Origin: a virus
Strand: one strand, 5' to 3'
Virus record (IMG/VR): IMGVR_UViG_3300034106_001917
Location: 1 to 59,073 of that record
DNA length: 59,073 bases
Under the pieces are notes generated by a model. The model saw only the letters and a list, made by a program, of their open reading frames with translations, was not told the origin of the DNA and did not search any database. This document shows positions 1-48,205 of the stretch, in pieces. Numbering within the stretch: position 1 is the stretch's first letter; each line of letters opens with the position of its first letter. The translations under genes were made by a program, and so were the position numbers.

Positions 1-1293
1 TTTGTTCTTTACGGACAAAATCCAAACTCAGGCACCACAATGATGATTGGTGCATCAAGACTAGCAAGACAACTCAAACTCATTCGACCCTCAATCAAAA
101 TCGTATTCATTGGATCACATGCTTCAGCATTACCATATGATGTGATTGGTTTGCCTTATGTTGATTTTGTATTCATCAACGAAGGTTTATATGGTCTATT
201 AGACTTGCTTCAAACAAATTACAAAGACAATTTAGATAAAGTTCGTGGTCTTGTTTATAAGAAGCATGGATTTGCTGCTACAGGTGCTCCAGGTGAGATT
301 GTAAAAACAGAAGACATGGATCGTGTGATGCCCGGTTATGCTTGGGACTTGTTACCAAAGAAAAGAAAATTACTAGACAAGTATCGGGCTCATTATTGGC
401 ACACAAATTTCTTAGATGAAGATCGTACACCATTTGCTGCTATCTCAACATCACTGGGCTGTTCATTTGGTTGTAACTTCTGTATGATCAATATTGTGAA
501 TCGTACATCATACGAACAAGGAACAGTATCATCAGATTCACGTGGTATGCGTTTCTGGTCACCTGAGTTGATGCTCAAAGAGTTTGAGTATTTGTATGAG
601 AATGGTGTTCGTACTGTGCGTTTGACTGATGAGATGTTCTTTTTGAATAAAAAGTATTACATACCAATTCTAGAAGGCATCAAACAACGTGGTATGGATT
701 TCAACTTTTGGGCATATGCACGTGTTGATTCTGTTCGCAAAGATCAATTAGAATTATTCAAAGAAGCAGGTGTCAATTGGCTATGTCTTGGTATCGAAGC
801 AGCAAATCAAAATGTACGACTTGAGATCGAAAAAGGTAAGTTTGAAGATGTAGATATTCGCCGAGTTGTTGCTGATGTAAAAGCAGCAGACATCAATATT
901 CTTGGCAACTACATGTTTGGTTTTCCAGAAGATACGATGGAGACAATGCAAGAAACACTAGACTTGTCACTTGAGTTGAATACTGAACACGCTAACTTCT
1001 ATGCAGCAATGGCATTACCTGGTAGTCCATTGTACATGTATGCAAAAAATAGTGGTTGGGATTTACCAGAGAAATTTGAAGAGTTTGCATTCTTATCTTA
1101 TGATTGTAAACCGCTACGCACAAAGACATTGACTGGTGCAGAAGTGTTGAAGTTCCGTGATGAAGCATGGCACAAATACTTTTCACATGAGCCATTCTTG
1201 AATCTTGTTGAAACAAAGTTTGGTGCTGATTCAAGACACAACCTTACAGAGATGTCAAAAATAAAATTGAAACGAAAAATACTTGGAGATTGA
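1..1293 (+). CDS. Radical SAM protein, probably B12-binding type (5' partial)
   Basis: The frame is open to base 1, so the N-terminus lies outside the window; the first in-window ATG is at 40. A Rossmann-like stretch with conserved hydrophobic strands (IKIVFIGSHASALP) precedes the radical SAM domain, the order typical of cobalamin-binding radical SAM enzymes. The [4Fe-4S] motif CSFGCNFC (CxxxCxxC) is encoded near 460-483. Such enzymes methylate or rearrange unreactive carbons using S-adenosylmethionine. The stop TGA (1291-1293) lies just upstream of a split transketolase and other sugar genes, so a role in making an unusual sugar is a reasonable inference. The substrate cannot be read from the sequence. 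Confidence 0.85.
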   Translation, partial: FVLYGQNPNSGTTMMIGASRLARQLKLIRPSIKIVFIGSHASALPYDVIGLPYVDFVFINEGLYGLLDLLQTNYKDNLDKVRGLVYKKHGFAATGAPGEIVKTEDMDRVMPGYAWDLLPKKRKLLDKYRAHYWHTNFLDEDRTPFAAISTSLGCSFGCNFCMINIVNRTSYEQGTVSSDSRGMRFWSPELMLKEFEYLYENGVRTVRLTDEMFFLNKKYYIPILEGIKQRGMDFNFWAYARVDSVRKDQLELFKEAGVNWLCLGIEAANQNVRLEIEKGKFEDVDIRRVVADVKAADINILGNYMFGFPEDTMETMQETLDLSLELNTEHANFYAAMALPGSPLYMYAKNSGWDLPEKFEEFAFLSYDCKPLRTKTLTGAEVLKFRDEAWHKYFSHEPFLNLVETKFGADSRHNLTEMSKIKLKRKILGD

Positions 1294-1295
1294 TT

Positions 1296-2066
1296 ATGGA
1301 TTTGCAAAGAAAAGCAAACTTATATCGTAAAGAATTATTTGAAAAGTTTGTTGAAGTAAAACAAGGACATCCTGGTTCTACTTTCTCAATGCTAGAGATT
1401 GTTACCACATTGTATCATGGTGGGTATGTTGGCTTTGAAGATAAAGTTATTATCAGCAAGGGTCATGCAACAGTAGCACTGTATCCTATTCTGCGTGACT
1501 TGGATATTATTCCACAAGAAGATTGGGATAATTGGGGTAAAGGTAAACCAACGTGTCTGCGTGTGTTTGGTAACATCTCAATACCAGGCATTGATATGAC
1601 ATCAGGCTCACTTGGGCATGGTATTGGTGTTGGTGCTGGTATGGCAATTGCTGATCCAAACAGTCATGTTCATGTTGTTATCTCAGAAGGTGAACTGTAT
1701 GAAGGCTCGACATGGGAAGCATTGTTGTTTGTTGCACATCGTCAAATCAAAAACATGACAATCTTTATTGACATTAATAATCTTATTATTCTTGGTAAGA
1801 CGGATGATTGTTTGATGCTCAATAGCATTCGTGAGAAGTTGTCTGGTTTCCCGTTTGACATATACTCAGTTGATGGACATAATACAAAAGAAATTACACA
1901 TGCTTTGGATGAAGTAGCATATCAACCAAAGATTATTTTATGTCATACAGTTAAAGGTAAAGGCTTCTCATTGATGGAGAACAAACCTGAATGGCATTAT
2001 ATGCAAGCAATTACACCAGAACAAATTGAACAGTGCCGTAAGGAGATTAATGATGCTACAGCGTGA
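1296..2066 (+). CDS. Transketolase N-terminal (ThDP-binding) subunit
   Basis: First half of a split transketolase, which transfers two-carbon ketol units between sugar phosphates (for example making sedoheptulose 7-phosphate). Family motifs are QGHPGSTFSMLE, SKGHATVALYP and GSLGHGIGVGAGMA. The ThDP/Mg signature, usually GDGE...NN, reads ISEGELYEG...DINN, with the metal-binding Asp replaced by Glu. I chose ATG 1296 because GGAG at 1285-1288 gives a 7-nt spacing; a TTG at 1290 is the alternative. The C-terminal subunit follows with a 17-nt overlap. The pair probably forms a heterotetramer, as in other split transketolases. Confidence 0.9.
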   Translation: MDLQRKANLYRKELFEKFVEVKQGHPGSTFSMLEIVTTLYHGGYVGFEDKVIISKGHATVALYPILRDLDIIPQEDWDNWGKGKPTCLRVFGNISIPGIDMTSGSLGHGIGVGAGMAIADPNSHVHVVISEGELYEGSTWEALLFVAHRQIKNMTIFIDINNLIILGKTDDCLMLNSIREKLSGFPFDIYSVDGHNTKEITHALDEVAYQPKIILCHTVKGKGFSLMENKPEWHYMQAITPEQIEQCRKEINDATA

Positions 2067-2970
2067 TGCATTTATTGAAGAAATAAGCAAAAGATTACAA
2101 ACAGACAGAGACATTTATTTTTTGTCAGCAGATTTTGGTGCAGCAGCACTAGATTCTCTGCGTGAAATGTATCCAGATAACTTCATTCATTGTGGTATCT
2201 CAGAACAAGCAATGATTGACATTGCAACTGGTCTTGCACTTCAAGGTAAAAAAGTATTTTGTTATGCAATGGCACCATTCATCTCTCTTCGTGCAATTGA
2301 ACAAATCAAGTGTGGACCATCGATGATGAATCTACCAATTGCTATTCTTTCAGTTGGTATTGGTATTGGTTATGCCGATGCTGGTCCTACACATTACATT
2401 ACTGAAGACTTTGCATGTATGCGTTCAATTCTCAATCTGAATGTCTATACATTGGCAGATGCAAGTTCTGCAAAAAGATTAGCAAATAGTCTCTTAGACA
2501 ATCCCGAATTGTGTTATGTTCGTTTTGATCGACATGAACAACCAGAACTACCTGTAACCAACTTTACACAAGACTTGACTTATCGTTTGATGGGTGACAC
2601 AGTTACTTCAGAGAAAGTTCTTGTGATTGGTTCAGGTAAGATGTCACACATCATTGCTGATGTCTATAAAGAAACTTCAGATAAAGTTGTTGGTATTGAT
2701 TTGATTCGTGCCAAACCATTTCCTAATACACTGAATATGTTGTTAGAAGAATGTGGTGGTGTAATTGTAGTTGATGAACAAACACCATGCGGTTCTTTGG
2801 GTGCCGCTGTGCTTGAAGCAATGTCGCAGAGAAACTCACTCAATAAAAAAGTAAAAGTAATCACACTACCAGAAGAGTATTTGTTTGAGAATGGTGGTCG
2901 TGAATATCTACTAAAGAAACACGGTTTGAGCAAAGAAAATATTCTGAAAACACTCAATGATAATTTCTAG
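2050..2970 (+). CDS. Transketolase C-terminal (pyrimidine-binding) subunit
   Basis: Second half of the split transketolase. The motif CGISEQAMIDIATGLALQG carries the conserved Glu that activates the thiamine ring, and the C-terminal third is a transketolase_C-type domain (VLVIGSGKMSHIIADVYKE). Start ATG 2050 (or 2053) follows a strong AAGGAG at 2040-2045, embedded in the end of the upstream gene. The frame can be opened to a TTG at 2026, but that has no better ribosome site. About 306 residues is normal for this subunit. It overlaps the GHMP kinase gene by 14 nt, so the three are probably translationally coupled. Confidence 0.9.
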   Translation: MMLQRDAFIEEISKRLQTDRDIYFLSADFGAAALDSLREMYPDNFIHCGISEQAMIDIATGLALQGKKVFCYAMAPFISLRAIEQIKCGPSMMNLPIAILSVGIGIGYADAGPTHYITEDFACMRSILNLNVYTLADASSAKRLANSLLDNPELCYVRFDRHEQPELPVTNFTQDLTYRLMGDTVTSEKVLVIGSGKMSHIIADVYKETSDKVVGIDLIRAKPFPNTLNMLLEECGGVIVVDEQTPCGSLGAAVLEAMSQRNSLNKKVKVITLPEEYLFENGGREYLLKKHGLSKENILKTLNDNF

Positions 2971-3940
2971 AACACCATACAGACTATCACTGTTTGGTGG
3001 TGGAACAGATTATCCAGATTGGTTTCAATCAAGGCAGACTAAGGTAATATCTGCCGCTATGGCGCATTATTGCTACATAAATTTAAAAAAGTTACCGCCT
3101 TATTTTGATTATGTAAATAGAGTTATCTACTCTAAAATAGAAAGTGTATCTGATGTTTCGCAAATAGAGCATCCTTCTGTAAGGGAGTGTTTAAAATACT
3201 ATGGCATACCTAACGGCGTTTCTATTACTCACGATGGCGATCTTCCTGCTCGTTCTGGCATTGGATCATCTTCTTCATTTACTGTTGGACTGATTCACGC
3301 TATACTGACATCACAAGGTAAGTTGCCTACACCATATGGTTTGGCAATGGATGCTATCAATATAGAACAAAACTATATTGGTGAGTCTGTTGGTGTTCAA
3401 GATCAAATCATGGCTGCGTACGGTGGCATTCGTGTCATTGAACTTTCTGGTGCAAACATGCATGTTCGTGACCTGAGAATCAAAGACGATTATGTTTTAG
3501 ATTTAGAAGATCATATCATGTTGGGTTTTTCTGGCATTGACAGATTTTCAAATGTTCATGCTAAACAACAGATTGATGCTATCAAAGAGGGTAAATCTAA
3601 AAAGCTTCTTGAAGAAATTACAACAATTACCGAAACAGCATTGCATATTCTTGAGAATCATGGTAAAATAAAAGAGATAGGTGAATTGCTGAAGTATCAG
3701 TGGAGCCGTAAGCGTGAACTTACAGATAGTGTTACAACTGATTACATAGATACAATATACAACAAAGCAATCAATGCTGGTGCATATGGTGGTAAGTTGA
3801 TGGGTGCAGGTGGTGGTGGATTCTTTATGTTTCTTGCACCACCAGATACACATCAAAAGATAAAAGAAGCAATACCTGGAATCAATGTATGGGTGCCTTT
3901 CAAGTTTGATTTTGAAGGCTCAAAAATTATTATGGAGTAA
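2957..3940 (+). CDS. GHMP-family sugar kinase (heptose-7-phosphate kinase-like)
   Basis: GHMP kinase of 327 residues. Motif 1 is RTPYRLSLFGGGTDYP, motif 2 is the ATP-binding PARSGIGSSSSFTVG, and motif 3 is KLMGAGGGGFFMF. The N-terminus and GGGTDYP resemble D-glycero-D-manno-heptose 7-phosphate kinases of the GDP-heptose route (HddA type), which phosphorylate the anomeric position. The direct neighbour is transketolase, which can make sedoheptulose 7-phosphate, the precursor of manno-heptose 7-phosphate; this fits but does not prove heptose use. No isomerase (GmhA) or phosphatase (GmhB) is in the window, so the host would have to supply them. Other GHMP sugar kinases remain possible. Confidence 0.85.
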   Translation: MIISRTPYRLSLFGGGTDYPDWFQSRQTKVISAAMAHYCYINLKKLPPYFDYVNRVIYSKIESVSDVSQIEHPSVRECLKYYGIPNGVSITHDGDLPARSGIGSSSSFTVGLIHAILTSQGKLPTPYGLAMDAINIEQNYIGESVGVQDQIMAAYGGIRVIELSGANMHVRDLRIKDDYVLDLEDHIMLGFSGIDRFSNVHAKQQIDAIKEGKSKKLLEEITTITETALHILENHGKIKEIGELLKYQWSRKRELTDSVTTDYIDTIYNKAINAGAYGGKLMGAGGGGFFMFLAPPDTHQKIKEAIPGINVWVPFKFDFEGSKIIME

Positions 3941-5118
3941 TGATGAAGTATCCTTTAATGTCAGACAATATTACTAGAGAAGATTTAGATTTGGTAATAG
4001 AACATCTAAAAAAAGATAATCCTAAACTTACAAATGGACCAGAGTGCCGTGCTTTTGAAGAAGCATGGAGTAAATGGCTTGGTGTAAAGTATTCTGTGTT
4101 TGTCAACTCAGGTGCTTCTGCAAATCTGTTGTCAATGACAATGTTGAAGATCAAACATCCAGAGGGTGGTGAAGTTATCGTGCCACCATTCACATGGGTG
4201 TCTGATATTGCTTCTATACTTCAATGTGGTTTTACTCCAGTGTTTGTGGATATTGATTTAGATACACTTGGTATGAATGAGTTTGGCATACTCAATGCAA
4301 TCACTGACAAGACACGTGCAGTCTTTATTACATATGCACAAGGCTTTGATTGCTTATCTCCTAGAGTATTAGAAGTTCTACGTCATCGTAAAATACCTTT
4401 GATTGAAGACGTTTGTGAATCACACGGTGCAACACACAACGGTAAATTGTTGGGAAGTTATGGTTGGATGTCTAACTTCTCTTTCTACTTTGCACATCAC
4501 ATGTCTACTATTGAAGGTGGTATGGTGTGTACAAATGATCCTGAAGTGTATCACACAGTTCGTATGCTTCGTTCACACGGTATGGTTCGTGAATGTGGTG
4601 ACTGGATAATGGCTGACAAATATAAAGCAGAATATCCAGAGTTGAATTCAGACTTCATATTTGCCTATGCTGCCTACAATATGCGTAACAATGAAATTGG
4701 CGGTATACTTGGGCAAAATCAGTTGAAACATTTGGATGAAAATGTTAAACTACGAAATGAGAATCTATTTTACTTCTTGTCAAAACTAGATCAAAAGAAA
4801 TATAAGGTTGACTTTAGATTGATTGGTTGCAGTAACTATGCGTTCAACATTGTTTTACAGCCAGAGTATGCAAACAAAGAGTTCGTAGAGAGATTGATGG
4901 GCAAGATGCGTGATGAACAAATTGAGTTTCGTCGTGGCTCTGCTGGTGGTGGTAATCAACTACGTCAACCATACTTGAAAAACATTGTGCCAGAAGATCA
5001 TTACAAGAAATTTCCAAATACTGATCACATGCACTTTTATTCTTTTTACATTGGTAACTATCCAACATTAAGTAAAACAGCAATTGATGAAATCACAAGC
5101 GTATTGAATAGGGTATAA
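3940..5118 (+). CDS. PLP-dependent sugar 3-dehydratase, ColD-like (DegT/DnrJ fold)
   Basis: DegT/DnrJ/EryC1/StrS-fold enzyme of 392 residues. The usual aminotransferase active-site Lys in a K-x-I-T-T-x-E-G-G context is replaced by His: FAHHMSTIEGG, His186. That replacement marks the 3-dehydratases ColD (GDP-4-keto-6-deoxymannose) and RfbH/E1 (CDP-sugars). The C-x-C iron-sulfur cysteines of E1 are absent, and the length fits ColD (388), so a ColD-like NDP-4-keto-6-deoxysugar 3-dehydratase is the better call. The ATG overlaps the stop of the kinase gene. An SDR follows, as expected for making a 3,6-dideoxy sugar, but no NDP-sugar 4,6-dehydratase is recognisable in the window. Confidence 0.75.
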   Translation: MMKYPLMSDNITREDLDLVIEHLKKDNPKLTNGPECRAFEEAWSKWLGVKYSVFVNSGASANLLSMTMLKIKHPEGGEVIVPPFTWVSDIASILQCGFTPVFVDIDLDTLGMNEFGILNAITDKTRAVFITYAQGFDCLSPRVLEVLRHRKIPLIEDVCESHGATHNGKLLGSYGWMSNFSFYFAHHMSTIEGGMVCTNDPEVYHTVRMLRSHGMVRECGDWIMADKYKAEYPELNSDFIFAYAAYNMRNNEIGGILGQNQLKHLDENVKLRNENLFYFLSKLDQKKYKVDFRLIGCSNYAFNIVLQPEYANKEFVERLMGKMRDEQIEFRRGSAGGGNQLRQPYLKNIVPEDHYKKFPNTDHMHFYSFYIGNYPTLSKTAIDEITSVLNRV

Positions 5119-5119
5119 T

Positions 5120-6052
5120 ATGAATATATTAGTGACTGGTGGTGCTGGCTATATTGGCTGCATTCTAACAGAATATTTGTTACAGATGGGTCATGAAGTG
5201 ACTGTCATTGACAACTTCATGTATAAGCAAATTGGATTGAGTCATCTTTGTGAAAACAAAAAACTTACTATTGTAAATGGTGACATTCGTAATCCACATC
5301 ACATGACACCTCTGTTGAAAAAAGCAGATGTGATTATACCTCTTGCTGCTCTTGTTGGTGCGCCGCTGTGTAACAAAGATGTTGTTGGTGCAGATACAAC
5401 AAACAAAGATGCAATGTTCTGGATGTTGAACAGCGTTTCAAATGAACAGCGTATCATTATGCCTACAACAAATTCGGCGTATGGCACAGGTGACGAAAAC
5501 AATTTCTGTACAGAAGAATCACCACTGCGACCAATCTCAAAGTATGCAATCGATAAAGTTGCAGTTGAAGAACGACTGATGCAACGTGAGAATTCTATCA
5601 GTTATCGGCTTGCTACAGTGTTTGGTATGTCACCACGTATGCGTACAGATTTGCTAGTAAATGATTTAGTTTATCGTGCAGTCAATGATGGTTATGTAAT
5701 TATCTTTGAAGGACATTTCAAACGTAATTATATTCACGTGCGTGATGTGTGTGAGGCATTTCTTCATGCGATGTATCAGTTTGAAGAGATGAAGAGTAAC
5801 ATCTACAATGTGGGCTTATCATCGGCCAACGTGTCTAAACTAGAACTCTGTGACATTATCAAGAAACACATTCCAAGTTTCACAGTTGTGGAAGGTGATA
5901 TCAAGAAAGATCCAGATCAACGTAACTACATTGTCTCTAATGAAAAGTTAGAAGCAACTGGTTGGATGCCTTACTACACACTAGATAATGGTGTAGAAGA
6001 ACTCATCAAGGGTTATACATACTTGAAGAATAATATTTACGGTAATGTATAA
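5120..6052 (+). CDS. NAD-dependent epimerase/dehydratase (extended SDR)
   Basis: Extended short-chain dehydrogenase of 310 residues acting on a nucleotide sugar. The N-terminal Rossmann motif is TGGAGYIG (GxxGxxG), followed by the acidic VIDNF after beta-2. The catalytic Ser/Thr is in PTTNSAYG and the YxxxK is SKYAIDK. It follows the ColD-like gene by 1 nt and its stop overlaps the gp55 start by one base. ColC-type epimerase/reductases act directly after ColD, so it may finish a deoxysugar; this is inference from order. Epimerase, reductase and dehydratase cannot be told apart here. Confidence 0.8.
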   Translation: MNILVTGGAGYIGCILTEYLLQMGHEVTVIDNFMYKQIGLSHLCENKKLTIVNGDIRNPHHMTPLLKKADVIIPLAALVGAPLCNKDVVGADTTNKDAMFWMLNSVSNEQRIIMPTTNSAYGTGDENNFCTEESPLRPISKYAIDKVAVEERLMQRENSISYRLATVFGMSPRMRTDLLVNDLVYRAVNDGYVIIFEGHFKRNYIHVRDVCEAFLHAMYQFEEMKSNIYNVGLSSANVSKLELCDIIKKHIPSFTVVEGDIKKDPDQRNYIVSNEKLEATGWMPYYTLDNGVEELIKGYTYLKNNIYGNV

Positions 6053-6591
6053 TGACCACATCAAATCACTACGTCAATAATGCAGATTTTCTGGCAGCAC
6101 TTGTCAAGTATCGGACAGATTGTGCTACCGCTAAAGAAAAAAACAAACCAGAACCAAAGATACCTGATTACATTGGTGAATGCTTTCTAAAGATTGCAGA
6201 ACATCTATCACGTAAACCAAACTTTATCTCATACACATATCGTGATGAGATGATATCGGATGGTGTAGAAAACTGTCTGATGTATTTTCGTAACTTTGAT
6301 CCTGCTAAGTCTAAGAATCCATTTGCTTACTTCACACAGATAATTTACTATGCCTTTCTGCGTAGAATTATGCGTGAGAAGAAACAACTGTATGTGAAGT
6401 ACAAAGCCACACAGCAGTTTGGTTTACTTGACGAAGGTGAGATGTATGAAGATGAAAATGGCAACATGAAACAGTTTGAGTTATATGACAACATCTCAGA
6501 GTTCATTCATAACTTTGAGGAAAACAAGAAGAAGAAAAAGGAAAAGAAGTCAGAGGGGCTTGAACAGTTTCTAGATGATGATGTAGAATAG
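6052..6591 (+). CDS. 55: Late-transcription sigma factor gp55
   Basis: T4 gp55-type sigma factor of 179 residues, which directs host RNA polymerase to TATAAATA late promoters. The family core is visible (IPDYIGECFLKIAEHLS, NFISYTYRDEMISDGVENC, NPFAYFTQIIYYAFLRRI), matching sigma region 2. The C-terminal tail ends GLEQFLDDDVE, a hydrophobic/acidic sequence like the T4 gp55 sliding-clamp-binding epitope. That fits clamp-activated late transcription with gp45 (18351). TATAAATA-type sites occur at 31159 and 49755, with a variant at 48201. A highly charged KKKKKEKK stretch precedes the tail. gp33 is not in the window. Confidence 0.93.
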   Translation: MTTSNHYVNNADFLAALVKYRTDCATAKEKNKPEPKIPDYIGECFLKIAEHLSRKPNFISYTYRDEMISDGVENCLMYFRNFDPAKSKNPFAYFTQIIYYAFLRRIMREKKQLYVKYKATQQFGLLDEGEMYEDENGNMKQFELYDNISEFIHNFEENKKKKKEKKSEGLEQFLDDDVE

Positions 6592-6605
6592 ATTGGAGTT
6601 ATAGT

Positions 6606-7067
6606 ATGATAATTGTGCCAGATGATATGATAGGTAAACCAGTAGGCTTTACTTGTTCGACTTTTGATTTGTTACACGCAGGACATATTCTTATGCTTGC
6701 CGAGTGTAAGCAAGTGTGTGATCATTTGATTGTTGGATTACAAACTGATCCAACCATAGATCGACCAGATACCAAAAACAAACCAATTCAATCAGTCGTT
6801 GAACGTTATGTTCAATTGTCTGCCGTAAAGTATGTAGATTCAATCGTTGTATATGAAACAGAAAAAGACCTAGAAGATTTGTTGATGTTTCTTCCAATCA
6901 CCATTCGCATTTGTGGTGAAGAATATGAAAACAAACATCTAACTGGCAAAGATATTTGTGACAGAAGAGGAATCAAAACTTACTATAACTCCAGAAAGCA
7001 TAGATTTAGTTCTACCGAGTTGAGATATAGAATTCACAAAACTGAAGAAGACAAGAAATACAAATGA
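6606..7067 (+). CDS. Cytidylyltransferase-like nucleotidyltransferase
   Basis: Small class-I nucleotidyltransferase of 153 residues with the HxGH signature in TFDLLHAGHILML and the RYVQLSAVKYVD segment typical of glycerol-3-phosphate cytidylyltransferase (TagD) and RfaE/HldE C-terminal domains. The late STELRYRI resembles the ISSTxxR motif. It would join an NMP to a phosphorylated polyol or sugar, giving for example a CDP- or ADP-linked donor. GGAG at 6595-6598 sets ATG 6606. It sits between gp55 and gp47 and overlaps gp47 by 4 nt. Given the heptose-type kinase upstream, a heptose-1-phosphate substrate is one possibility, unproven. Confidence 0.8.
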   Translation: MIIVPDDMIGKPVGFTCSTFDLLHAGHILMLAECKQVCDHLIVGLQTDPTIDRPDTKNKPIQSVVERYVQLSAVKYVDSIVVYETEKDLEDLLMFLPITIRICGEEYENKHLTGKDICDRRGIKTYYNSRKHRFSSTELRYRIHKTEEDKKYK

Positions 7068-34265: not shown

Positions 34266-35108
34266 ATGAAAGATGTGATTGTAGGCTGTGCCAACAACTA
34301 TGATTGGTCCAAACTAAAATATTGGGTCAATTCTATCAATCAATCAGGCTTTGAAGGTGACAAAGTTCTGATTCTCATGAACTGTGATAAAGATACCGTA
34401 CAAAAAGTATCTAACGCAGGCTTCTCAATCATTGCATTCAATCAAGACACTGAAGGTAATTTGAAGTATCAATCGAATCTTATGGTTCACGTTGAACGTT
34501 TTGTTCACATTTACAAATTACTCAAAAGCAATGATTATCGGTATGTAATTACTACTGACGTAAGAGATGTTATCTTTCAAAAGAATCCTGTAGAATGGTT
34601 AGAAGAGAATCTTTCAGCACAAGAAGATTTGGTATTCTCTTCTGAGAGTATGAAATATAAAGATGAGCCATGGGGTCGTGAAAATATCACACAATGTTAT
34701 GGTCAAGGCATCTATGATGATTTCAAGAACAACACGATCTTCAATGTGGGTGTTCTTGCTGGTCGAGGTCATGCAATGAGAGACCTGGTGCTACAGTTAT
34801 TTTTGAACTGTATCAACAGACCAATTCCAATTGTAGATCAGGCAGTATTCAACGTAATGGTATCAAGACATCCATATGTGAAAACATCAATGTACATGAA
34901 ATCCGAAGAAGGCTGGGCATGTCAATTAGGCACAACTGCCGATCCAAGTAAGATCGAACAATTCAGACCACATCTTTTAGAACCATCACCGAAATTAGAA
35001 GGTGATAAGGTTGTAACTTCAACAGGAATAGAGTATACTATTGTACATCAGTATGATCGTGTGCCAGAATGGCGTAAAGTGATTGAGGCAAAATATGACG
35101 ACAAATAG
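34266..35108 (+). CDS. GT-A-type glycosyltransferase
   Basis: Protein of 280 residues. It begins KDVIVGCANNYDWSKLKYWV and has a metal-binding TTDVRDVIFQKNP (DxxD) in the place of the DxD motif, followed by FNVGVLAGRG and VDQAVFN, as in glycosyltransferases that read nucleotide-sugar donors. It opens the second sugar cassette and overlaps the following methyltransferase by 14 nt. Donor could be the product of the nucleotidyltransferase at 36482, but that is inference. Confidence 0.72.
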   Translation: MKDVIVGCANNYDWSKLKYWVNSINQSGFEGDKVLILMNCDKDTVQKVSNAGFSIIAFNQDTEGNLKYQSNLMVHVERFVHIYKLLKSNDYRYVITTDVRDVIFQKNPVEWLEENLSAQEDLVFSSESMKYKDEPWGRENITQCYGQGIYDDFKNNTIFNVGVLAGRGHAMRDLVLQLFLNCINRPIPIVDQAVFNVMVSRHPYVKTSMYMKSEEGWACQLGTTADPSKIEQFRPHLLEPSPKLEGDKVVTSTGIEYTIVHQYDRVPEWRKVIEAKYDDK

Positions 35109-35775
35109 AATCAAAGAACTATTTTGGGAATTAGAAAAACCATCTACTAAATGGTCAGGCTACTTTGATGTTTATGAAAGACATCTAAAGAAGTTTGTGG
35201 GTAAAGCACCACGCATACTTGAAATTGGTGTACTTGGTGGCGGCTCAATTGAAATGTGGCTGAAATACTTTGGACCAGATACATCAGTTGTTGCCATTGA
35301 CATCAACGAAGAATGTTTGAAATATGAGTATACTGGTGATGTCAAGATTGTGATGGGTGATCAAGGCGACCCAGAGTTTTGGGATGAGTTTCTCAAAACA
35401 CAAAACAAGTTTGACATTGTAATTGATGATGGCTCACATGTAATGAATCATCAAATCACTACACTCAACAAAGTTTTTCCACACATCAAAGAGGGTGGTG
35501 TATACATTTGTGAAGACACTCACACAAGTTATTGGCCACAGCCATGGGGTGGTGTATTTCGTGGTGCTGGCACATTCACCGAACACTGTAAGCGGGCAAC
35601 TGATATAGTCAATCAGCAGCACTTTCAAGGCTCACCAATTTCACAAGATGCACTAGATGCATATCACAATCTGTATTCTGTAGCATTCTACAACAGTATG
35701 GTTGTGATGGAAAAAGAACAACTCAAGCCATTTGGCATCACAGACAACAAAGCAAACGTGGGGCGTGAACTATGA
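35095..35775 (+). CDS. Class I methyltransferase, sugar O-methyltransferase-like
   Basis: Protein of 226 residues from ATG 35095 (overlaps the upstream stop). Motif I is ILEIGVLGGGSIEMWL, and the later KFDIVIDDGSHVMNHQ is typical of TylF/MycE-like and rhamnosyl O-methyltransferase-like enzymes. EGGVYICEDTHTSYW follows. It would methylate a hydroxyl of a sugar or cyclitol. It overlaps the next gene by 4 nt. Confidence 0.75.
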   Translation: MTTNRIKELFWELEKPSTKWSGYFDVYERHLKKFVGKAPRILEIGVLGGGSIEMWLKYFGPDTSVVAIDINEECLKYEYTGDVKIVMGDQGDPEFWDEFLKTQNKFDIVIDDGSHVMNHQITTLNKVFPHIKEGGVYICEDTHTSYWPQPWGGVFRGAGTFTEHCKRATDIVNQQHFQGSPISQDALDAYHNLYSVAFYNSMVVMEKEQLKPFGITDNKANVGREL

Positions 35776-36485
35776 GAATAGCACTCTGTATCTCTGGCCA
35801 ACCAAGAATGTGGGAAAAAGGCCATGCATATCATTACGAAAATATTATCAAAGATAATGATGTAACTGTCTTTCTGCATTCATGGGAAATGCCCGCTGAA
35901 GAGATGCAAAAGATTTCTTCAAAGTATAATGCATACAGTTTCAAAACATCACCAAATCCTACAGTTGATTTGTCAAAGTATACAAACACACCACCACCAT
36001 CACCAAATTGGAAAGTCAAAGATGGTCGTATGTCAACATATGCTCAGTTGTATGCAATCAGAGAATGCATGAAAACAAAGTATGAATATGAAAAATACTT
36101 TGAAATGAAGTTTGATTGGGTCATTCGTTCACGATTCGACTTTGCTATTAACACTCGTATACCATTTGAAGAACTAGACAATAGTAAGTTGTACATACCA
36201 AACTGTCGCATGACACCAGAACGTGACTTTGGTAATGATCAGTTTGCGTTCTCATCATCCGAAAATATGGACAAGTATGCTGATGCTTACAATCACATTG
36301 ATGAGTTCTACAATTCTGGTGTGCAATACATGATGGAAGATTTCATGAGTGCCAACTGGAAGAGACACAATCTTGTTGGTGAAAATCTTGTATATTGCGA
36401 TGTCAATCATCCGTTTTCACCAGGAGAATATAACAGCACATGGCATTCTCTTTTGAGAAATGATATGGAAGAATGGCTCAAATGA
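35772..36485 (+). CDS. Glycosyltransferase-like protein
   Basis: Protein of 237 residues. RIALCISGQPRMWEKG at the start and FDWVIRSRFDFAINT with an Asp-rich, DxD-like position are typical of a family of phage and bacterial surface-sugar proteins. GRMSTYAQLYAIRECM and NDQFAFSSSENM follow. Probably a transferase in the same cassette, but without a clear classical DxD the call is tentative. Confidence 0.65.
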   Translation: MRIALCISGQPRMWEKGHAYHYENIIKDNDVTVFLHSWEMPAEEMQKISSKYNAYSFKTSPNPTVDLSKYTNTPPPSPNWKVKDGRMSTYAQLYAIRECMKTKYEYEKYFEMKFDWVIRSRFDFAINTRIPFEELDNSKLYIPNCRMTPERDFGNDQFAFSSSENMDKYADAYNHIDEFYNSGVQYMMEDFMSANWKRHNLVGENLVYCDVNHPFSPGEYNSTWHSLLRNDMEEWLK

Positions 36486-37204
36486 ATCTGATAATCTGTA
36501 TGGCGGGTTACAACACCCGTTTCCATGACGTTGGCTTTGACATACCAAAATATCTTTTGCCTTGGAATGGCAAAACAATCATATACGATATTTTGAAGAA
36601 TCTTGGTTGGGTCAATCAACTTATTCTTGTGGCCAACAAAAGAGACATTTATTTCAAAGAGCAACTTGTTGAAGCAATCAAGCCATTGGGATGGAACGAA
36701 AGTAATATTCTTTATATCGGTGATACAAAAGGTCAAGCACACACAGCAGCGATTGGAATTGAACAACTGAACAACAAGAACTTACCAACATTTGTACACA
36801 ATGCAGATACAATCATCAAGGGTCGTCGTATAGATTTTATTGCCGATGACTTGACCGCAAAGCATGATGCATACATTGATGTGTTTGTGGGTAATTCACC
36901 AAAGTATTCTTATGTTCGTGCATTTGAAAACACGGTAATTGAAATTGTGGAAAAGAAACAAATCTCACCTTATGCATCATCGGGCTTCTATGGTTTTCTA
37001 ACTGGTCATCTTTACCTAGAATATTATAACAAGTTAGCCGAAAAAGATGGTGAATTGTATATTGCAGATGTGATACAAAGTATGATACAATCTAATAAAC
37101 AAGTATTCATGAATCCTCTTGGCAGCAATCAAGAAACGATTGTGCTAGGCAGTCCTCAAGAATACGGTATTGAGATAGCAAGGCAAACACTAGGTGCAAA
37201 ATGA
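36482..37204 (+). CDS. Sugar-phosphate nucleotidyltransferase
   Basis: Protein of 240 residues. NLIICMAGYNTRFHDVGFDIPKYLLP matches the NTP-transferase signature (GxGxRF...PK). The later FVHNADTIIKG supplies the Asp for metal binding and ASSGFYGFLTG is a usual sugar-binding part. It would charge a sugar or cyclitol phosphate with an NMP. ATG 36482 gives the 4-nt ATGA overlap; an in-frame ATG at 36473 is less likely. It precedes the APH-like kinase, so kinase plus nucleotidyltransferase may act in series. Confidence 0.82.
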   Translation: MNLIICMAGYNTRFHDVGFDIPKYLLPWNGKTIIYDILKNLGWVNQLILVANKRDIYFKEQLVEAIKPLGWNESNILYIGDTKGQAHTAAIGIEQLNNKNLPTFVHNADTIIKGRRIDFIADDLTAKHDAYIDVFVGNSPKYSYVRAFENTVIEIVEKKQISPYASSGFYGFLTGHLYLEYYNKLAEKDGELYIADVIQSMIQSNKQVFMNPLGSNQETIVLGSPQEYGIEIARQTLGAK

Positions 37205-38154
37205 CAACTATACCATTGAAAGGTGGCTCACTCAGTAAAACTTACTGGCTACCAGATGAGAAGATTGTTCGCAAAGAAATCTCACGTATAAAAAATCGTG
37301 AATATGGTTTCATGCGTTGGTATTCTCAGTTGAAGAAGTTACAAGAATATAACACACTGTATCCTGGTTTGTTTCCTAAAGTTGTAAATGTAGATTCTAC
37401 TAGTGTTGAAGCATGGTTTGATTTGGAATATCTTGAAGGCTTTCGTGATATCAAAAGCATTCTTAGTAAAGACACACTGAGTGAAGAACAAATCTTCAGA
37501 ATGAGTCAAGCAGTCTGGAGAGGACTGAATACACTTCACTCAATCAGAAAAGAACCTATTGCTGGCACACCAAAACTTTATTTTGTTGAAGAGATACAAC
37601 AGAAGATTGAAGATGCCATCAAAATAAAAGAGTTTGAAGATTTCTTCTATTATGGCACTTACCATTTCAATGGTGAAGTTGTTACAGGTATAGGTGGTTA
37701 TCTTCATGTTCTGAAAGAATACTTTGCAGAATTAGAAAATGATGATGAGTGTAACATTCACGGTAATCCTACACTAGAAAATATCATGTATTCATTTAAT
37801 GAAGATCGTGTTGTCTTCATTGACTTATATGATGAGAGTATGTGGAACACCAAGTATCTTGACTATGCACAAGTGTTACAATGTTCTCGTAGTCACTATG
37901 GCTTCATCAACGATCATGATGTTCGTGTAAAAGGAATTGATGTGTCTATTTCTCATGGTGGTGTGGATCACTTTGAGACATTCAACAAACACTTTATCTC
38001 TGAGTTACCAGAAGATAAAATGAAACTCATAGATATACTAGAAGCATCACAGTTCATTCGTATGCTTCCGTTCAAACTGCTTGCTGGTGATATTGATAAA
38101 GCAAAATATTTTTATGTTCATGCATGTAAACTGTTTAGTAAGGCGATGAAATGA
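37201..38154 (+). CDS. APH/choline-kinase-like phosphotransferase
   Basis: Protein of 317 residues. The catalytic loop NIHGNPTLENIMY follows the HGD...N pattern of aminoglycoside/choline kinases, with Asn in place of the usual catalytic Asp. The metal motif is VVFIDLYDE. The N-terminal lobe has KIVRKEIS, a candidate ATP-binding Lys. It may phosphorylate a small sugar or cyclitol. Because of the HGN variant, activity needs testing. It lies between a nucleotidyltransferase and a cyclase, with 4-nt overlaps on both sides. Confidence 0.7.
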   Translation: MTTIPLKGGSLSKTYWLPDEKIVRKEISRIKNREYGFMRWYSQLKKLQEYNTLYPGLFPKVVNVDSTSVEAWFDLEYLEGFRDIKSILSKDTLSEEQIFRMSQAVWRGLNTLHSIRKEPIAGTPKLYFVEEIQQKIEDAIKIKEFEDFFYYGTYHFNGEVVTGIGGYLHVLKEYFAELENDDECNIHGNPTLENIMYSFNEDRVVFIDLYDESMWNTKYLDYAQVLQCSRSHYGFINDHDVRVKGIDVSISHGGVDHFETFNKHFISELPEDKMKLIDILEASQFIRMLPFKLLAGDIDKAKYFYVHACKLFSKAMK

Positions 38155-39287
38155 GTTTAGACTTTATGATGGATTATGACAAGTTCAAACGAACTTGGTC
38201 AGTCAAAACAGAACTACCAGTAGAATTCAAACTTACATACTCTGCTGACATCTTCAGCCCAAGTAATCAAGATATTGTAAACATCACGAACAGTGATCGT
38301 AGAATTATTGTTATTGATTCTGAAGTGCATGATCTATACAAAGATAGCATTGCAGCATACTTTGGCGCTGTCAAGTTGAGTTGCAAAATACTTTGTGTAG
38401 ACTGCAAAGAAGAAAATAAAAACTGGAAGAATGTAGATCGTATCTTAGACTTTTTTGAACAGAATGGAGTGTTACGCCGTGAACCGATTATCGCAATTGG
38501 CGGGGGTGTCCTGCTTGACATTGTTGGCTTTGCTTGCAGCATTTATCGTCGTGGAATTCCATATATCAAAATCCCCACAACACTTCTGGCGATTGTTGAT
38601 GCATCAGTCGGCTCAAAAGTAGGTGTCAATCATTTAGGTAGACGCAATCGTATTGGTGCGTACTATCCACCATTGGCGACATATATTGATAAGAAGTTTA
38701 TTCGCACACAGAGTGAACGTGAGATTGTCAATGGCATTGCAGAGATATTCAAACTTGCAGTCATCAAATCACCAGAACTATTTCATCTGCTAGAAGAAAA
38801 TGCAGAGATATTGATTGATGAAAAGTTTCAGTATGGTGCAGTGCCAGTTCGTGTAATCAATCTTGCTATCACAGATATGATTGCAGAACTAGGACCAAAC
38901 CTGTGGGAAAAACGATTAGATCGTTGTGTAGATTTTGGTCACACATTTAGTCCTGTGATTGAGATGGCTAACATACCAGAGTTGTTACATGGTGAAGCAG
39001 TAGCGTTAGACTGCTTGTATAGTTCGTGTATTTCATTCATTCGTGGTTACATTGACACAGTTCAATTGAAACGAATCTTTGGTGTTGCAAAGAGATTGAA
39101 ACTAAAAACATTTCATAAAGACTTCACAAACATGAAGTATTTGTTAGAAAGTCTGCGTGATGCAACCAAACATCGTAATGGCGATCAGTATGCACCACTA
39201 CCTATTGCAATTGGCAACTACAAGATTGTCAATGATATCACAGAAGATGAAATGAAATTGGCTATTGATCTTTTTGAGGAGATATGA
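38151..39287 (+). CDS. Sugar phosphate cyclase, 2-epi-5-epi-valiolone-synthase-like
   Basis: Protein of 378 residues of the dehydroquinate-synthase superfamily. NAD-binding GGGVLLDIVGF (117-127), SIYRRGIPYIKIPTTLLAIVD, active-site VGSKVGVN (Lys156), and likely zinc ligands Glu198, His264 and His280. The stretch AELGPNLWE...DFGHTFSPVIE is more like 2-epi-5-epi-valiolone synthases (ELxPNL...DFGHTFSP), which cyclise sedoheptulose 7-phosphate, than dehydroquinate synthases (NLGHTFGHAIE). No other shikimate gene is nearby. With transketolase at 1296-2970, and a kinase, nucleotidyltransferase and SDR adjacent, a C7-cyclitol product is plausible. Other sugar phosphate cyclase activities cannot be excluded. 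Confidence 0.78.
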   Translation: MSLDFMMDYDKFKRTWSVKTELPVEFKLTYSADIFSPSNQDIVNITNSDRRIIVIDSEVHDLYKDSIAAYFGAVKLSCKILCVDCKEENKNWKNVDRILDFFEQNGVLRREPIIAIGGGVLLDIVGFACSIYRRGIPYIKIPTTLLAIVDASVGSKVGVNHLGRRNRIGAYYPPLATYIDKKFIRTQSEREIVNGIAEIFKLAVIKSPELFHLLEENAEILIDEKFQYGAVPVRVINLAITDMIAELGPNLWEKRLDRCVDFGHTFSPVIEMANIPELLHGEAVALDCLYSSCISFIRGYIDTVQLKRIFGVAKRLKLKTFHKDFTNMKYLLESLRDATKHRNGDQYAPLPIAIGNYKIVNDITEDEMKLAIDLFEEI

Positions 39288-39958
39288 TGCGTAAGGTTGC
39301 TGTAGTCACTGGTTGTAGTTATGGTCTTGGTTATGATATAGCAGGTAGATTAATTGATGAGGGCTATTTTGTTTATGGTCTATCACGTTCACAACCACCT
39401 ATGGACTTGTATTCATATCCCGATACATTTGAATGGGTTGAATGCGACATAACAAAGTCAAAACAAGTTGAAGATGCATTTAAAACAATTGGCACATACA
39501 TTGATGTGCTTGTAAACAATGCTGGTGTGTATGAGTGGGGATTGTTCAAAGACGAACTTTCATTTGAATCGATAGACAAGATTATTGATTTGAATGTCAA
39601 AGGCACGATGTATGTAACACTAAAAGCACTCAAGTTACTGAATAAAGGTAGCGACATTTTCTTCATCAATTCTGTTGCTGGTCTAAAAGAGATGGAATGG
39701 GAAGCAGTTTACTCAGCATCTAAACATGCCATCACAGCATTTGCTGGTGCATTGGGTGCAGAATTACACACACAGATGAATGAGATTCGTGTCACAAGCA
39801 TTCATCCTGGTGGTATACAAACACCTATGCAAAAAGATCACCCAGATAGAAAGAAGTTTTTAGAACCAAAAGAAGTAAGTGACACGATTGTTCATGTCAT
39901 TAAATCAAAAGCAACTTACAAAACAATCAAACTATTTTCGGATGTAGAATGGCACTAA
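39284..39958 (+). CDS. Short-chain dehydrogenase/reductase
   Basis: Classical SDR of 224 residues. The cofactor motif is TGCSYGLG (TGxxxGxG), the structural NNAG is in LVNNAG, catalytic Ser is in FINSVAG, and YxxxK is YSASK. It overlaps the cyclase gene by 4 nt, so it probably oxidises or reduces the cyclitol or a related sugar. In characterised cyclitol pathways an SDR acts after the cyclase and kinase; that parallel is the reason for the inference. Confidence 0.85.
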   Translation: MMRKVAVVTGCSYGLGYDIAGRLIDEGYFVYGLSRSQPPMDLYSYPDTFEWVECDITKSKQVEDAFKTIGTYIDVLVNNAGVYEWGLFKDELSFESIDKIIDLNVKGTMYVTLKALKLLNKGSDIFFINSVAGLKEMEWEAVYSASKHAITAFAGALGAELHTQMNEIRVTSIHPGGIQTPMQKDHPDRKKFLEPKEVSDTIVHVIKSKATYKTIKLFSDVEWH

Positions 39959-40656
39959 TACCCTCACAACAGATGTTCATTGTAACATCTGCACTCAACC
40001 CAAATATGGGCATACTCAATCGCCAAGAAAGACTTGAACAAACGATTGAAGGTCTTGTGTCACTCAGACGAAAATGTCCAGACGCCATTGTTATTTTGGC
40101 TGATGGTTCACCAGAGCCAGTAGAAAGAGAAAAATATGACAGTATGAGTCAATTTGTCAATCTGATTGTTGATTTTTCTGGTGATAGGGAAATAGCACAA
40201 TTTGCGTCAATTGGCCGTAAAAGTGAAGCAGAGAATGTGTTGATGTTAAAAGTGATGATGCTTTTAAAACAATCAGCGAACATGATGCGATTGATGCATT
40301 CTGTTAGTAGAATTTATAAATTTTCAGCACGGACCGTATTTCTTGATGATTTTGATATAACTGAACATGATCACTTTGGAAAATATGTGTTCAAAAAAAG
40401 AATGCCAACTTGGATGGGCGGTGAAGTTGCTGAAACATTTACTGATTTACTGATTACTCGTTTTTTCTCATTTTGTCCGAGTCTGATTGATGATTATTCA
40501 ATTGTTTGTAGAAGAAATGTTGATGTAATTCAAAATACTAGAGTTGACACTGAACATGCTCATTTCTTCAACATTGAGTCTGACCGTCTTGTAGAACTTG
40601 ATAAAATACACTGTCAAGGTGTCATGGCCAGCACAGGAGCAACGGAAATCTACTAA
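39949..40656 (+). CDS. Hypothetical protein at the end of the sugar cassette, possibly GT-like
   Basis: Protein of 235 residues overlapping the SDR by 10 nt. FIVTSALNPNMGILNRQERLEQT and AIVILADGSPEPV look like the start of a GT-A fold (strand, loop, then Asp), and TVFLDDFDITEHDHFGKYVF could hold the DxD. It is probably the fourth transferase-like gene of the cassette, though no certain family match is visible. Its stop overlaps a CTAAATA late-promoter-like box. Confidence 0.55.
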   Translation: MALIPSQQMFIVTSALNPNMGILNRQERLEQTIEGLVSLRRKCPDAIVILADGSPEPVEREKYDSMSQFVNLIVDFSGDREIAQFASIGRKSEAENVLMLKVMMLLKQSANMMRLMHSVSRIYKFSARTVFLDDFDITEHDHFGKYVFKKRMPTWMGGEVAETFTDLLITRFFSFCPSLIDDYSIVCRRNVDVIQNTRVDTEHAHFFNIESDRLVELDKIHCQGVMASTGATEIY

Positions 40657-46417: not shown

Positions 46418-48205
46418 ATGTCAGTCGCCGATAAGTTACATCAACGACAAATGGCTCTGCGTAAGAAGTCGGGACTACCACATCCCGACTATTACAAAGA
46501 GTTGGGTCATTCTTACGGTATTTCTGATGACAAAGAGAGACTTGCAAAGCAGGCAGAAATCAAAAAGAAATACAAAGTTGAAGAAGTTGAACAACTTGAT
46601 GAGATGCCAGAGTCGAGCATGAAGACACGTGATGTTCATGCACATCTTCGTAAATCAGGTTGGACATTGAAGCGTACAGGTGGTGGACATGATGTATATG
46701 CTCATCCAAAGTCAAAAGAACACATTGCTGTTCCAAGACATAAACAACTCAAAGCACCATTGATTCGTGGTATTATGAAAGCATCAAGAGTCTCCGAAGA
46801 GACAGAGATTGATGAACAATTAGAAAAGAAAGGACGATTCGTGTCTGGACCAGTTAAAAAACCTTTTAAGTCTTCTACGATTGTTTCACCAATTAAAGAG
46901 GCAAAAGACCCACGTGAGTATGATTATGAGGGCGACATGGCAATGTCACAACTTCGTTCACTAGTTTTCAATGCAGAAGACTTGATTGAAATGATGGATG
47001 AAAATACAAATCTTCCTGAGTGGGTACAATCAAAGATTACACTTGCTGAAGATTATATCTCTACAGCAGCAAACTATCTGCGTGGCGAATTGACCGAAGC
47101 AGCAAATCCCGCACAACAAGCAGCGATTGCAATCAACATGAAGAAAAAAGGTATCAAGCCTAAAAACGAAGAAGTTGAACATCTTGATGAGATTAGTTCT
47201 GATACAGCTAAATCATATCTTGACAAGGTTCGATTTAAGCAGGCAAAAAGAGCAGTAAAGGCAAACATAGGCGCACCAAGAGAAAAGCCATTGGCTGCTG
47301 CTGCTCTTGACAGAACAGCCAAGAGTATGGAACTTGCTCGTAAGCGTGTAAAAGAAGAAGTTGAACTTCAAGAAGGTCGCCCATCACAGCGTCATCCACT
47401 AGAAGGTCACGATTATCACAAGAAATCCAATGAAGCGTTAGTTCATATTGCCAAAGATGCTCATGAAGCAGCAGAAGCAATGAAGAGTCATAATACAACA
47501 GCAGAAAACAAATATCGTGATCAAGCAAATGATTCTGCAACTGTAAGACACTGGAGAAAAAAGAATGGTATGCCTGATTGGTATAAAAAGAAGTATGGGC
47601 ATGTCAACGAAGAATTTGAACTTGATGAGGGTATGGAAGGTGGAACATATGTGCGCCGAGACTTATCAGGTAGACCTATTGCTCCAAAATCAACTCTGTC
47701 ATTCAGAAAATATGCTGTTAAATCTGACGGAACTCAAGGTAAAGAACTTAAAGTTGGTACTTTGACACCATACACAGATAAAGAAAAAAGAGAAAGAGAT
47801 AGTGAAGAGGTACGCTCTGGGCACATTTCGGCAGATAAGTATAAAGAACACATGAAAAAGTATGGTCATCTTTACAAGAAAGAAGAATTTGAGTACCTTG
47901 AAGAGAAGAATGAACCAACCAATCCAGCACTTTGGTCAAAAGCAAAATCATTAGCACGTTCTAAGTTTGATGTATATCCATCAGCATACGCCAACGGTTG
48001 GGCCGCAAAGTGGTACAAGTCAAAAGGTGGTGGTTGGAAGACTGTAAGTGAAGATGTTGATGATCCAAGTGCAGCAGCAAGAACTCTGTCACGCAAGGCT
48101 CAGATTGTTAAAGATGCTGCAAAAGGAAAAAAACAAGAACAAGAACAGGCATCGGATAAGTTTCAAAAAGACCCCGAATTGTCTAGCGATATACAGAAAA
48201 CATAA
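46418..48205 (+). CDS. Modular polyprotein-like protein with HicA-like toxin domain
   Basis: Protein of 595 residues built from modules separated by repeated EE(V/F)E...LxE junctions: LDE60-62, LDE256-258, LQE317-319, LDE402-404 and LEE494-496. Residues 68-125 match HicA/YcfA mRNA interferases: TRDVHAHLRKSGWTLKRTGG, then HDVYAHP with candidate catalytic His91, then IAVPRHKQLKAPLIRGIMKA. Residues 162-227 hold a YDYEGDMAMSQLRSLV...LPEWVQSKIT module common in aquatic phages, and 500-540 a SKFDVYPSAYANGWAAKWYK module. The junctions fit the (L/I)xE cleavage rule of T4 prohead protease gp21. Protease-released head cargo including a toxin is an inference. No HicB antitoxin is seen. Confidence 0.7.
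   Translation: MSVADKLHQRQMALRKKSGLPHPDYYKELGHSYGISDDKERLAKQAEIKKKYKVEEVEQLDEMPESSMKTRDVHAHLRKSGWTLKRTGGGHDVYAHPKSKEHIAVPRHKQLKAPLIRGIMKASRVSEETEIDEQLEKKGRFVSGPVKKPFKSSTIVSPIKEAKDPREYDYEGDMAMSQLRSLVFNAEDLIEMMDENTNLPEWVQSKITLAEDYISTAANYLRGELTEAANPAQQAAIAINMKKKGIKPKNEEVEHLDEISSDTAKSYLDKVRFKQAKRAVKANIGAPREKPLAAAALDRTAKSMELARKRVKEEVELQEGRPSQRHPLEGHDYHKKSNEALVHIAKDAHEAAEAMKSHNTTAENKYRDQANDSATVRHWRKKNGMPDWYKKKYGHVNEEFELDEGMEGGTYVRRDLSGRPIAPKSTLSFRKYAVKSDGTQGKELKVGTLTPYTDKEKRERDSEEVRSGHISADKYKEHMKKYGHLYKKEEFEYLEEKNEPTNPALWSKAKSLARSKFDVYPSAYANGWAAKWYKSKGGGWKTVSEDVDDPSAAARTLSRKAQIVKDAAKGKKQEQEQASDKFQKDPELSSDIQKT

Follow-up and report, generated by a model that had tools for sequence, protein, structure and literature searches.

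What would a phage do with a sugar phosphate cyclase? The question is raised by a virus record from IMG/VR (IMGVR_UViG_3300034106_001917, positions 1 to 59,073), the whole 59,073-nucleotide stretch of which we call the window. It encodes in tandem a nucleotidyltransferase (NT), a kinase-like protein (KIN), a cyclase (CYC) and a short-chain dehydrogenase (SDR). An earlier note, made from the bare sequence, had read these genes as a possible phage-encoded C7-cyclitol cassette built around a cyclase resembling 2-epi-5-epi-valiolone synthase (EEVS), and this still stands as the best reading. We propose that the phage probably carries a swappable sugar-nucleotide cassette, which would make an activated C7-cyclitol (a carbasugar) for glycan modification. 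Within this proposal, the predicted identity of CYC as an EEVS-type cyclase, the conservation of the gene block and the exchange of the cassette in sister phages are well supported by sequence comparison. The phage data throughout are metagenomic contigs, many of them fragmentary.

Identity of the cyclase

Among all PDB sequences, the best match of CYC is ValA, the EEVS of validamycin biosynthesis (4p53; 284 bits, E = 1.1e-83), with an identity of ~41%. Next come the Anabaena DDGS (224 bits, 2.2e-65), dehydroquinate synthases (DHQS; at most 143 bits, best 8e-41) and DOIS (97 bits, 9e-27).

When aligned with 80 bacterial homologues, CYC keeps the metal ligands E198, H264 and H280; in the ValA PDB chain they correspond to E219, H290 and H306. 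Two further positions, D261 and H341, are equivalent to D287 and H366 of that chain, which we take to be Asp281 and His360 of the published numbering. All 44 phage sequences that cover D261, H341 and the metal ligands agree in them, and the EEVS-type Asp and His occupy the D261 and H341 columns in 80/80 bacterial sequences as well. At the same columns, DDGS has Ala and Thr, and DHQS sequences have Asn and lack the His. The stretch ELGPNL...DFGHTFSP, on which the earlier note had based its assignment, is indeed present and aligns with ELQPNL...DFGHSFSP of ValA. DHQS has NxGHTFGH here, with Gly-His where CYC has S267-P268.

The earlier note had proposed a tree and an active-site comparison as checks. 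We calculated a maximum likelihood tree of 77 proteins, which included DHQS, DOIS, DDGS and EEVS and no EVS reference. The phage cyclases group together (100/96), within the region of the tree occupied by ValA and other EEVS-like proteins. DHQS, DOIS, two EboD-like sequences (assigned by motif) and a Streptomyces outlier fall outside it. Both checks thus place CYC on the EEVS side, with EEVS-type residues at D261 and H341 and the DHQS-diagnostic residues replaced. Taken together, the scores, residues and tree give good support to CYC as a sedoheptulose 7-phosphate (SH7P) cyclase of the EEVS type rather than a dehydroquinate synthase.

Conservation, exchange and layout of the cassette

Two scans of IMG/VR recovered 45 CYC loci on 44 contigs, with CYC 61-100% identical, so that conservation extends over at least 44 uncultured phage contigs. 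Wherever a contig reaches, the gene order GT1-MT-GT2-NT-KIN-CYC-SDR-GT3 is kept (GT, predicted glycosyltransferase; MT, methyltransferase; Table 1), MT being absent from a few contigs (e.g. L020 and L041). Pairwise ratios of non-synonymous to synonymous substitution rates (dN/dS) are mostly 0.02-0.28 and reach at most 0.37 (SDR, most distant pair), with synonymous sites near saturation for distant pairs. With the same order in every viral contig that spans the region, and with purifying selection on the genes, a chance arrangement is excluded. In one contig (L016:8290-11137), CYC is 95% identical to that of the window, NT 70% and KIN 58%. Together with conflicting CYC and KIN trees, these uneven identities suggest recombination inside the cassette. 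The four-gene set was not found in any cultured phage searched. In these records, CYC has matches of 26-31% identity only, annotated, where an annotation is given, as 3-dehydroquinate synthase; KIN and GT3 have no match in them, although the records nearest to the window may not be covered.

Scanning with the upstream flank gene, we fetched 80 phage loci. Six contigs (L214, L244, L245, L246, L247 and L251) carry a different set between the same GT2 and GT3. This alternative cassette consists of a 248-aa APH-type kinase with the usual HGD motif and a 340-aa protein that combines a nucleotidyltransferase-like N-terminal part with a HAD hydrolase domain; three of the six have an NAD-dependent epimerase in addition. 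The two cassettes occur together in none of the 80 loci. As the same flanks surround different kinase-plus-nucleotidyltransferase sets, the slot looks like a swappable sugar-nucleotide module between constant transferase genes. Sugar phosphate cyclases release the phosphate themselves (PMC5133447), and the cyclitol version would therefore need no phosphatase, which would explain why its cassette has no HAD domain. Cyanobacterial relatives fuse nucleotidyltransferase and APH domains (L261:418-2490 and L138-L148), one of them with a HAD domain in between; these fusions are possibly one-protein versions of the alternative phage cassette. In a further contig (L257:3321-7228), the same flanks enclose quite different contents, namely a DUF707 protein, a radical SAM enzyme and two methyltransferases.

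Is the cassette confined to phages? In a first scan of cellular genomes, a phage-heavy alignment gave no match, but a core alignment that included ValA did. We examined the best 80 genome loci, several of which are metagenome-assembled genomes (MAGs), where mis-binning is possible. KIN, CYC, SDR and NT occur together in Polynucleobacter (L105), a Fibrobacteria MAG (L065) and a Woesearchaeota MAG (L055), and NT, KIN and CYC in two Prochlorococcus single-cell genomes (L048, L052) and a Myxococcales MAG (L049). The cyclases of the phages and of these prokaryotes belong to a single subclade (99/95), together with a Halomonas cyclase that has no cassette beside it. NT is 36-40% identical to the NT of most bacterial cassettes, and the SDR orthologues of L055, L065 and L105 end in the same C-terminal EWH. 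In Prochlorococcus, an aldo/keto reductase (PF00248) directly follows CYC, and the myxobacterial counterpart is 38% identical to it. That an unrelated type of reductase can take this position speaks for a ketone-reduction step. In Polynucleobacter, the cassette stands between Wzz/ManC and additional glycosyltransferase genes, in a locus of ManC, a family 2 glycosyltransferase, Wzz, a family 9 glycosyltransferase and GDP-mannose dehydratase, and a polysaccharide flippase adjoins the cassette of L055. Such cassettes are rare. When 399, 386, 151, 41, 396 and 279 genomes were sampled, strong full-length KIN matches were limited to the seed genomes.

In the window, the four open reading frames lie where the earlier note had put them (36482-39958, + strand), and every junction between them is an ATGA, the 4-nt overlap it had described. 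Its glycosyltransferases and methyltransferase directly upstream were recovered as GT1, MT and GT2 with Pfam and PHROGs. The block is larger than this interval, as it begins at 34266 and takes in an eighth gene, GT3, downstream. An in-frame ATG also occurs at 36473, ahead of the NT start; the start at 36482 is favoured because the relative in L065 begins with MNLILTMAG.

Table 1. Coordinates of the eight-gene block and of selected residues within the window.
Feature	Coordinates	Strand	Assignment and basis
GT1	34266..35108	+	Glycosyltransferase-like; phrog_1579 glycosyltransferase 2.6e-6; kept upstream of the cassette across phage contigs
MT	35098..35775	+	S-adenosylmethionine-dependent methyltransferase; Methyltransf_24 PF13578 3.9e-6; alternative TTG start 35083
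GT2	35772..36485	+	DUF7796-like, probable glycosyltransferase; DUF7796 2.1e-5; phrog_13607
NT	36482..37204	+	Predicted nucleotidyltransferase forming a nucleoside diphosphate (NDP)-cyclitol; NTP_transferase PF00483 2.5e-11; PDB 4evw 1.4e-19
KIN	37201..38154	+	APH-fold kinase-like protein; APH PF01636 2.9e-5; predicted model
KIN H187-G188-N189	37759..37767	+	Replaces the catalytic HGD of APH kinases
CYC	38151..39287	+	Predicted EEVS-type sedoheptulose 7-phosphate cyclase; DHQ_synthase 5.7e-36 and DHQS_C (Pfam)
CYC segment D261 to H341	38931..39173	+	D261 and H341, EEVS-type positions; H264 and H280, metal ligands
CYC E198	38742-38744	+	Third metal ligand; aligned with ValA
SDR	39284..39958	+	Short-chain dehydrogenase, predicted cyclitol ketoreductase; adh_short 4e-40
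GT3	39949..40656	+	235 aa; predicted GT-A-fold protein, candidate cyclitol transferase

That the block is phage-encoded is borne out by T4-like replication genes within the window (sliding clamp, clamp loader, UvsX, DNA polymerase and helicase). The replication proteins are nearest to those of Synechococcus phages. Despite this, we rejected a typical cyanophage identity, as no member of the psbA/psbD family was found in 16 related records of up to 172 kb.

Two other features of the window deserve mention. A second sugar cluster (1290-7067) encodes a transketolase split over two genes, a DegT aminotransferase, an epimerase, an RfaE domain II-like adenylyltransferase and a GHMP kinase closest to the D-glycero-D-manno-heptose 7-phosphate kinase HddA. 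The product of transketolase is SH7P, the predicted substrate of CYC. We considered the split transketolase as a dedicated SH7P supplier and discarded it, since it is absent from most related CYC-bearing contigs, including ones of 133, 146 and 172 kb, and so is not an obligatory partner. Further downstream (46418-48205), a 595-aa protein contains an internal HicA toxin-like domain (PF07927).

A proposed pathway and its alternatives

In the proposed pathway, CYC would convert SH7P of the host into 2-epi-5-epi-valiolone or a close isomer, with loss of the phosphate. SDR would reduce the ring ketone to a cyclitol, KIN would turn this into a cyclitol phosphate, and NT would join it with a nucleotide to give an NDP-cyclitol. 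GT3, and perhaps GT1 and GT2 as further enzymes of the GT-A type, would then place the cyclitol onto a glycan, with methylation by MT as an optional step. The target is likely a cell-surface polysaccharide of the host during infection and less likely a virion protein. An altered host surface could block competing phages. We infer the order of the SDR, KIN and NT steps, the nucleotide, the stereochemistry, the acceptor and the benefit. On a broader scale, and held more tentatively, phages and scattered bacteria may share a dedicated pathway that depends on the unusual HGN kinase described below and leads to nucleotide-activated carbasugars, and these carbasugars would be built into surface glycans or cap them. 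A T4-like lineage would in this case swap modules and so write different sugars onto the same glycan.

KIN scores over the PF01636 gathering score, and the nearest solved folds to its model (pLDDT 91.4) are APH(2'')-Ia (TM 0.54) and APH(3'). Its catalytic motif reads HGN in 41/42 phage sequences (LGN in the remaining one) and in 6/6 prokaryotic cassettes. Relatives outside the cassette have HGD, and the HGN kinases form one side of a branch (90/92) in the KIN tree. In alignment A3, HGN is invariant, as are K25, E34, N194 and D208. KIN may either act as a kinase through an altered catalytic loop or be a pseudokinase, and is the weakest link of the pathway.

GT3 is a candidate for the cyclitol transferase. 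A PDB sequence search with it gave no match, and its fold was seen by structure comparison: the AlphaFold model (pLDDT 92.6, pTM 0.91) has only GT-A-type transferases among the 50 matches listed by Foldseek, with families GT6, GT8 and GT15 at the top. GT2 has distant relatives in cyanophages, two of which overlap a gene annotated as capsular polysaccharide biosynthesis. A 385-aa protein without a Pfam match flanks the cassette in L055 (12230-13387) and L065 (7516-8682); the two copies are 34% identical, and the protein is another candidate cyclitol transferase.

Several observations weigh against the proposed pathway. The catalytic Asp of APH kinases is absent from KIN across the whole cassette family, so KIN could be inactive or carry out other chemistry. 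GT3 resembles known folds only at a TM of ~0.5 and is without a family assignment. A surface-polysaccharide locus is unmistakable only around the cassette of Polynucleobacter, and no surface-polysaccharide genes were identified near that of the Fibrobacteria MAG. In the cyclase tree, DDGS stands alone on a long branch, and the fork there is partly open. For this reason, and as the tree has no EVS reference, the exact product formed from SH7P is less certain than SH7P as the substrate.

How do other explanations fare? Two of them concern CYC itself. It could be an ordinary DHQS that feeds the aromatic amino acid pathway of the host, as the Pfam label DHQ_synthase and 214.6 bits against the NCBIfam aroB equivalog model would have it. 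That score is under the model's cutoff of 305, and EEVS is 60-140 bits closer to CYC than DDGS or DHQS. Nor was any other shikimate gene found among some 40 window proteins scanned with Pfam, in agreement with the earlier note, and a separate DHQS-like match is present in 5/6 cassette genomes, the exception being the small Woesearchaeota MAG. With residues and tree position also pointing away from DHQS, we rejected a role as shikimate auxiliary gene and give this explanation hardly any credence. Alternatively, CYC might use SH7P and yield another ring product (2-epi-valiolone, a desmethyl-deoxygadusol-like enol or a new isomer), which would lead to a different cyclitol. The confident part of the comparison with ValA covers two fingerprint positions and the metal site, at the moderate identity given above, which leaves room for such a change. 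D261 and H341 match ValA, unlike DDGS, and the phage cyclases group with EEVS, albeit next to the partly open fork, so that we consider another product unlikely.

The remaining explanations accept the cyclase and change what surrounds it. If KIN were a pseudokinase, the four genes would encode an incomplete NDP-cyclitol pathway, and the phosphate would come from a host kinase or another route. HGD is replaced in every cassette copy of KIN, and its best PDB profile match is the JAK2 pseudokinase region, found through the HGN motif at a weak E-value of 0.01. Nevertheless, the invariant K25, E34, N194 and D208 fit nucleotide and metal binding, and KIN is strictly retained with the other three genes at dN/dS well below 1, which makes a pseudokinase unlikely in our view. 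The activated cyclitol could also decorate the phage itself, on DNA bases or virion proteins. T4 relatives glucosylate their DNA, and the window encodes a C-5 cytosine methylase, a 2OG-Fe(II) oxygenase and ThyX. Against this, no member of the thymidylate synthase/dCMP hydroxymethylase family was found in eight related records of up to 172 kb; these may be fragments, and the finding therefore disfavours DNA glucosylation only weakly. The bacterial counterparts of the cassette, moreover, have no phage DNA to modify, and we judge self-decoration unlikely. Finally, known EEVS pathways yield free molecules (PMC9200736, PMC8599487), and the cassette might likewise make a small inhibitor, similar to acarbose or streptol, against the glycan metabolism of the host or a competitor. 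This seems improbable to us, since no AcbS/VldE-type pseudoglycosyltransferase or export gene was identified, GT-like genes and a methyltransferase are its constant neighbours, sister phages have a different sugar-nucleotide set in the slot, and the orthologous Polynucleobacter cassette sits among surface-polysaccharide genes.

Comparison with known systems

The earlier note had stated that acarbose and validamycin pathways use the same four enzyme types, which finds no support in this form. The logic is common to the phage block and the acb and val pathways: an SH7P cyclase, a kinase, a reductase, a nucleotidyltransferase and a transfer step (PMC9200736). The components differ. The best NCBIfam models of NT are of the Arch_glmU and RmlA types, and no glgC model, which the AcbR/VldB type would call for, is among its listed matches; KIN has an APH fold with HGN, and the associated candidate transferases are GT-A-like. 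Pfam, NCBIfam and PHROGs identified neither an AcbO-type 2-epimerase nor an AcbS/VldE-type pseudoglycosyltransferase in the block, within the limits of a fragment record and of family models rather than a direct comparison with AcbO and AcbS. The slot swap in sister phages also points to a sugar-nucleotide module for glycans and not to a secreted pseudo-oligosaccharide.

With ValA, CYC has in common the full-length similarity, the metal ligands, the D281/H360-type positions and the motifs LWE and VDFGH[ST]FSP. The gene neighbours of ValA are unlike those of CYC, which belongs to a separate subclade with cassette-bearing bacteria. EboD and DDGS are of the same superfamily, and SH7P is their inferred or known substrate (PMC5133447, PMC4426668). 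The EboD-like sequences, recognised by motif only, and DDGS lie outside the phage clade, and DDGS lacks the residues of D261 and H341.

The closest real counterparts are the four-gene cassettes of a few bacteria (L105, L065 and L055), followed by the three-gene versions of L048, L052 and L049. In all of these, an orthologous HGN KIN, CYC, NT and SDR or aldo/keto reductase are adjacent. Their gene order is unlike that of the phage, at 27-51% identity. To our knowledge, none of them has been characterised. On the side of the phages, cyanomyophages and pelagimyophages are likewise T4-like and carry lipopolysaccharide genes, whose glycosyltransferases and enzymes of sugar synthesis are believed to change the O-chain of the host, with a suggested benefit of protection against coinfection (PMC7029224). 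In the portion of that source drawn on here, the enzymes are ordinary ones, e.g. rfaE and UDP-glucose 6-dehydrogenase, and a sugar phosphate cyclase is not mentioned.

Antibiotics, glucosidase inhibitors and sunscreens are the main settings from which C7-cyclitols are known (PMC9200736, PMC4426668). If our proposal is true, a conserved and swappable phage set would add viral glycan decoration to this list and account for EEVS genes that are otherwise orphans in Polynucleobacter, Prochlorococcus and other genomes. It also offers a candidate transferase, GT3, and a family of kinases in which the catalytic loop is altered, and sister phages that differ mainly in their sugar cassette provide a natural experiment. 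No report of phage EEVS or cyclitol genes was found in the open-access literature searched. As far as this search extends, both the chemistry and the phage-glycan setting have precedents, and the novelty lies in bringing the two together and in a cassette that can be exchanged.

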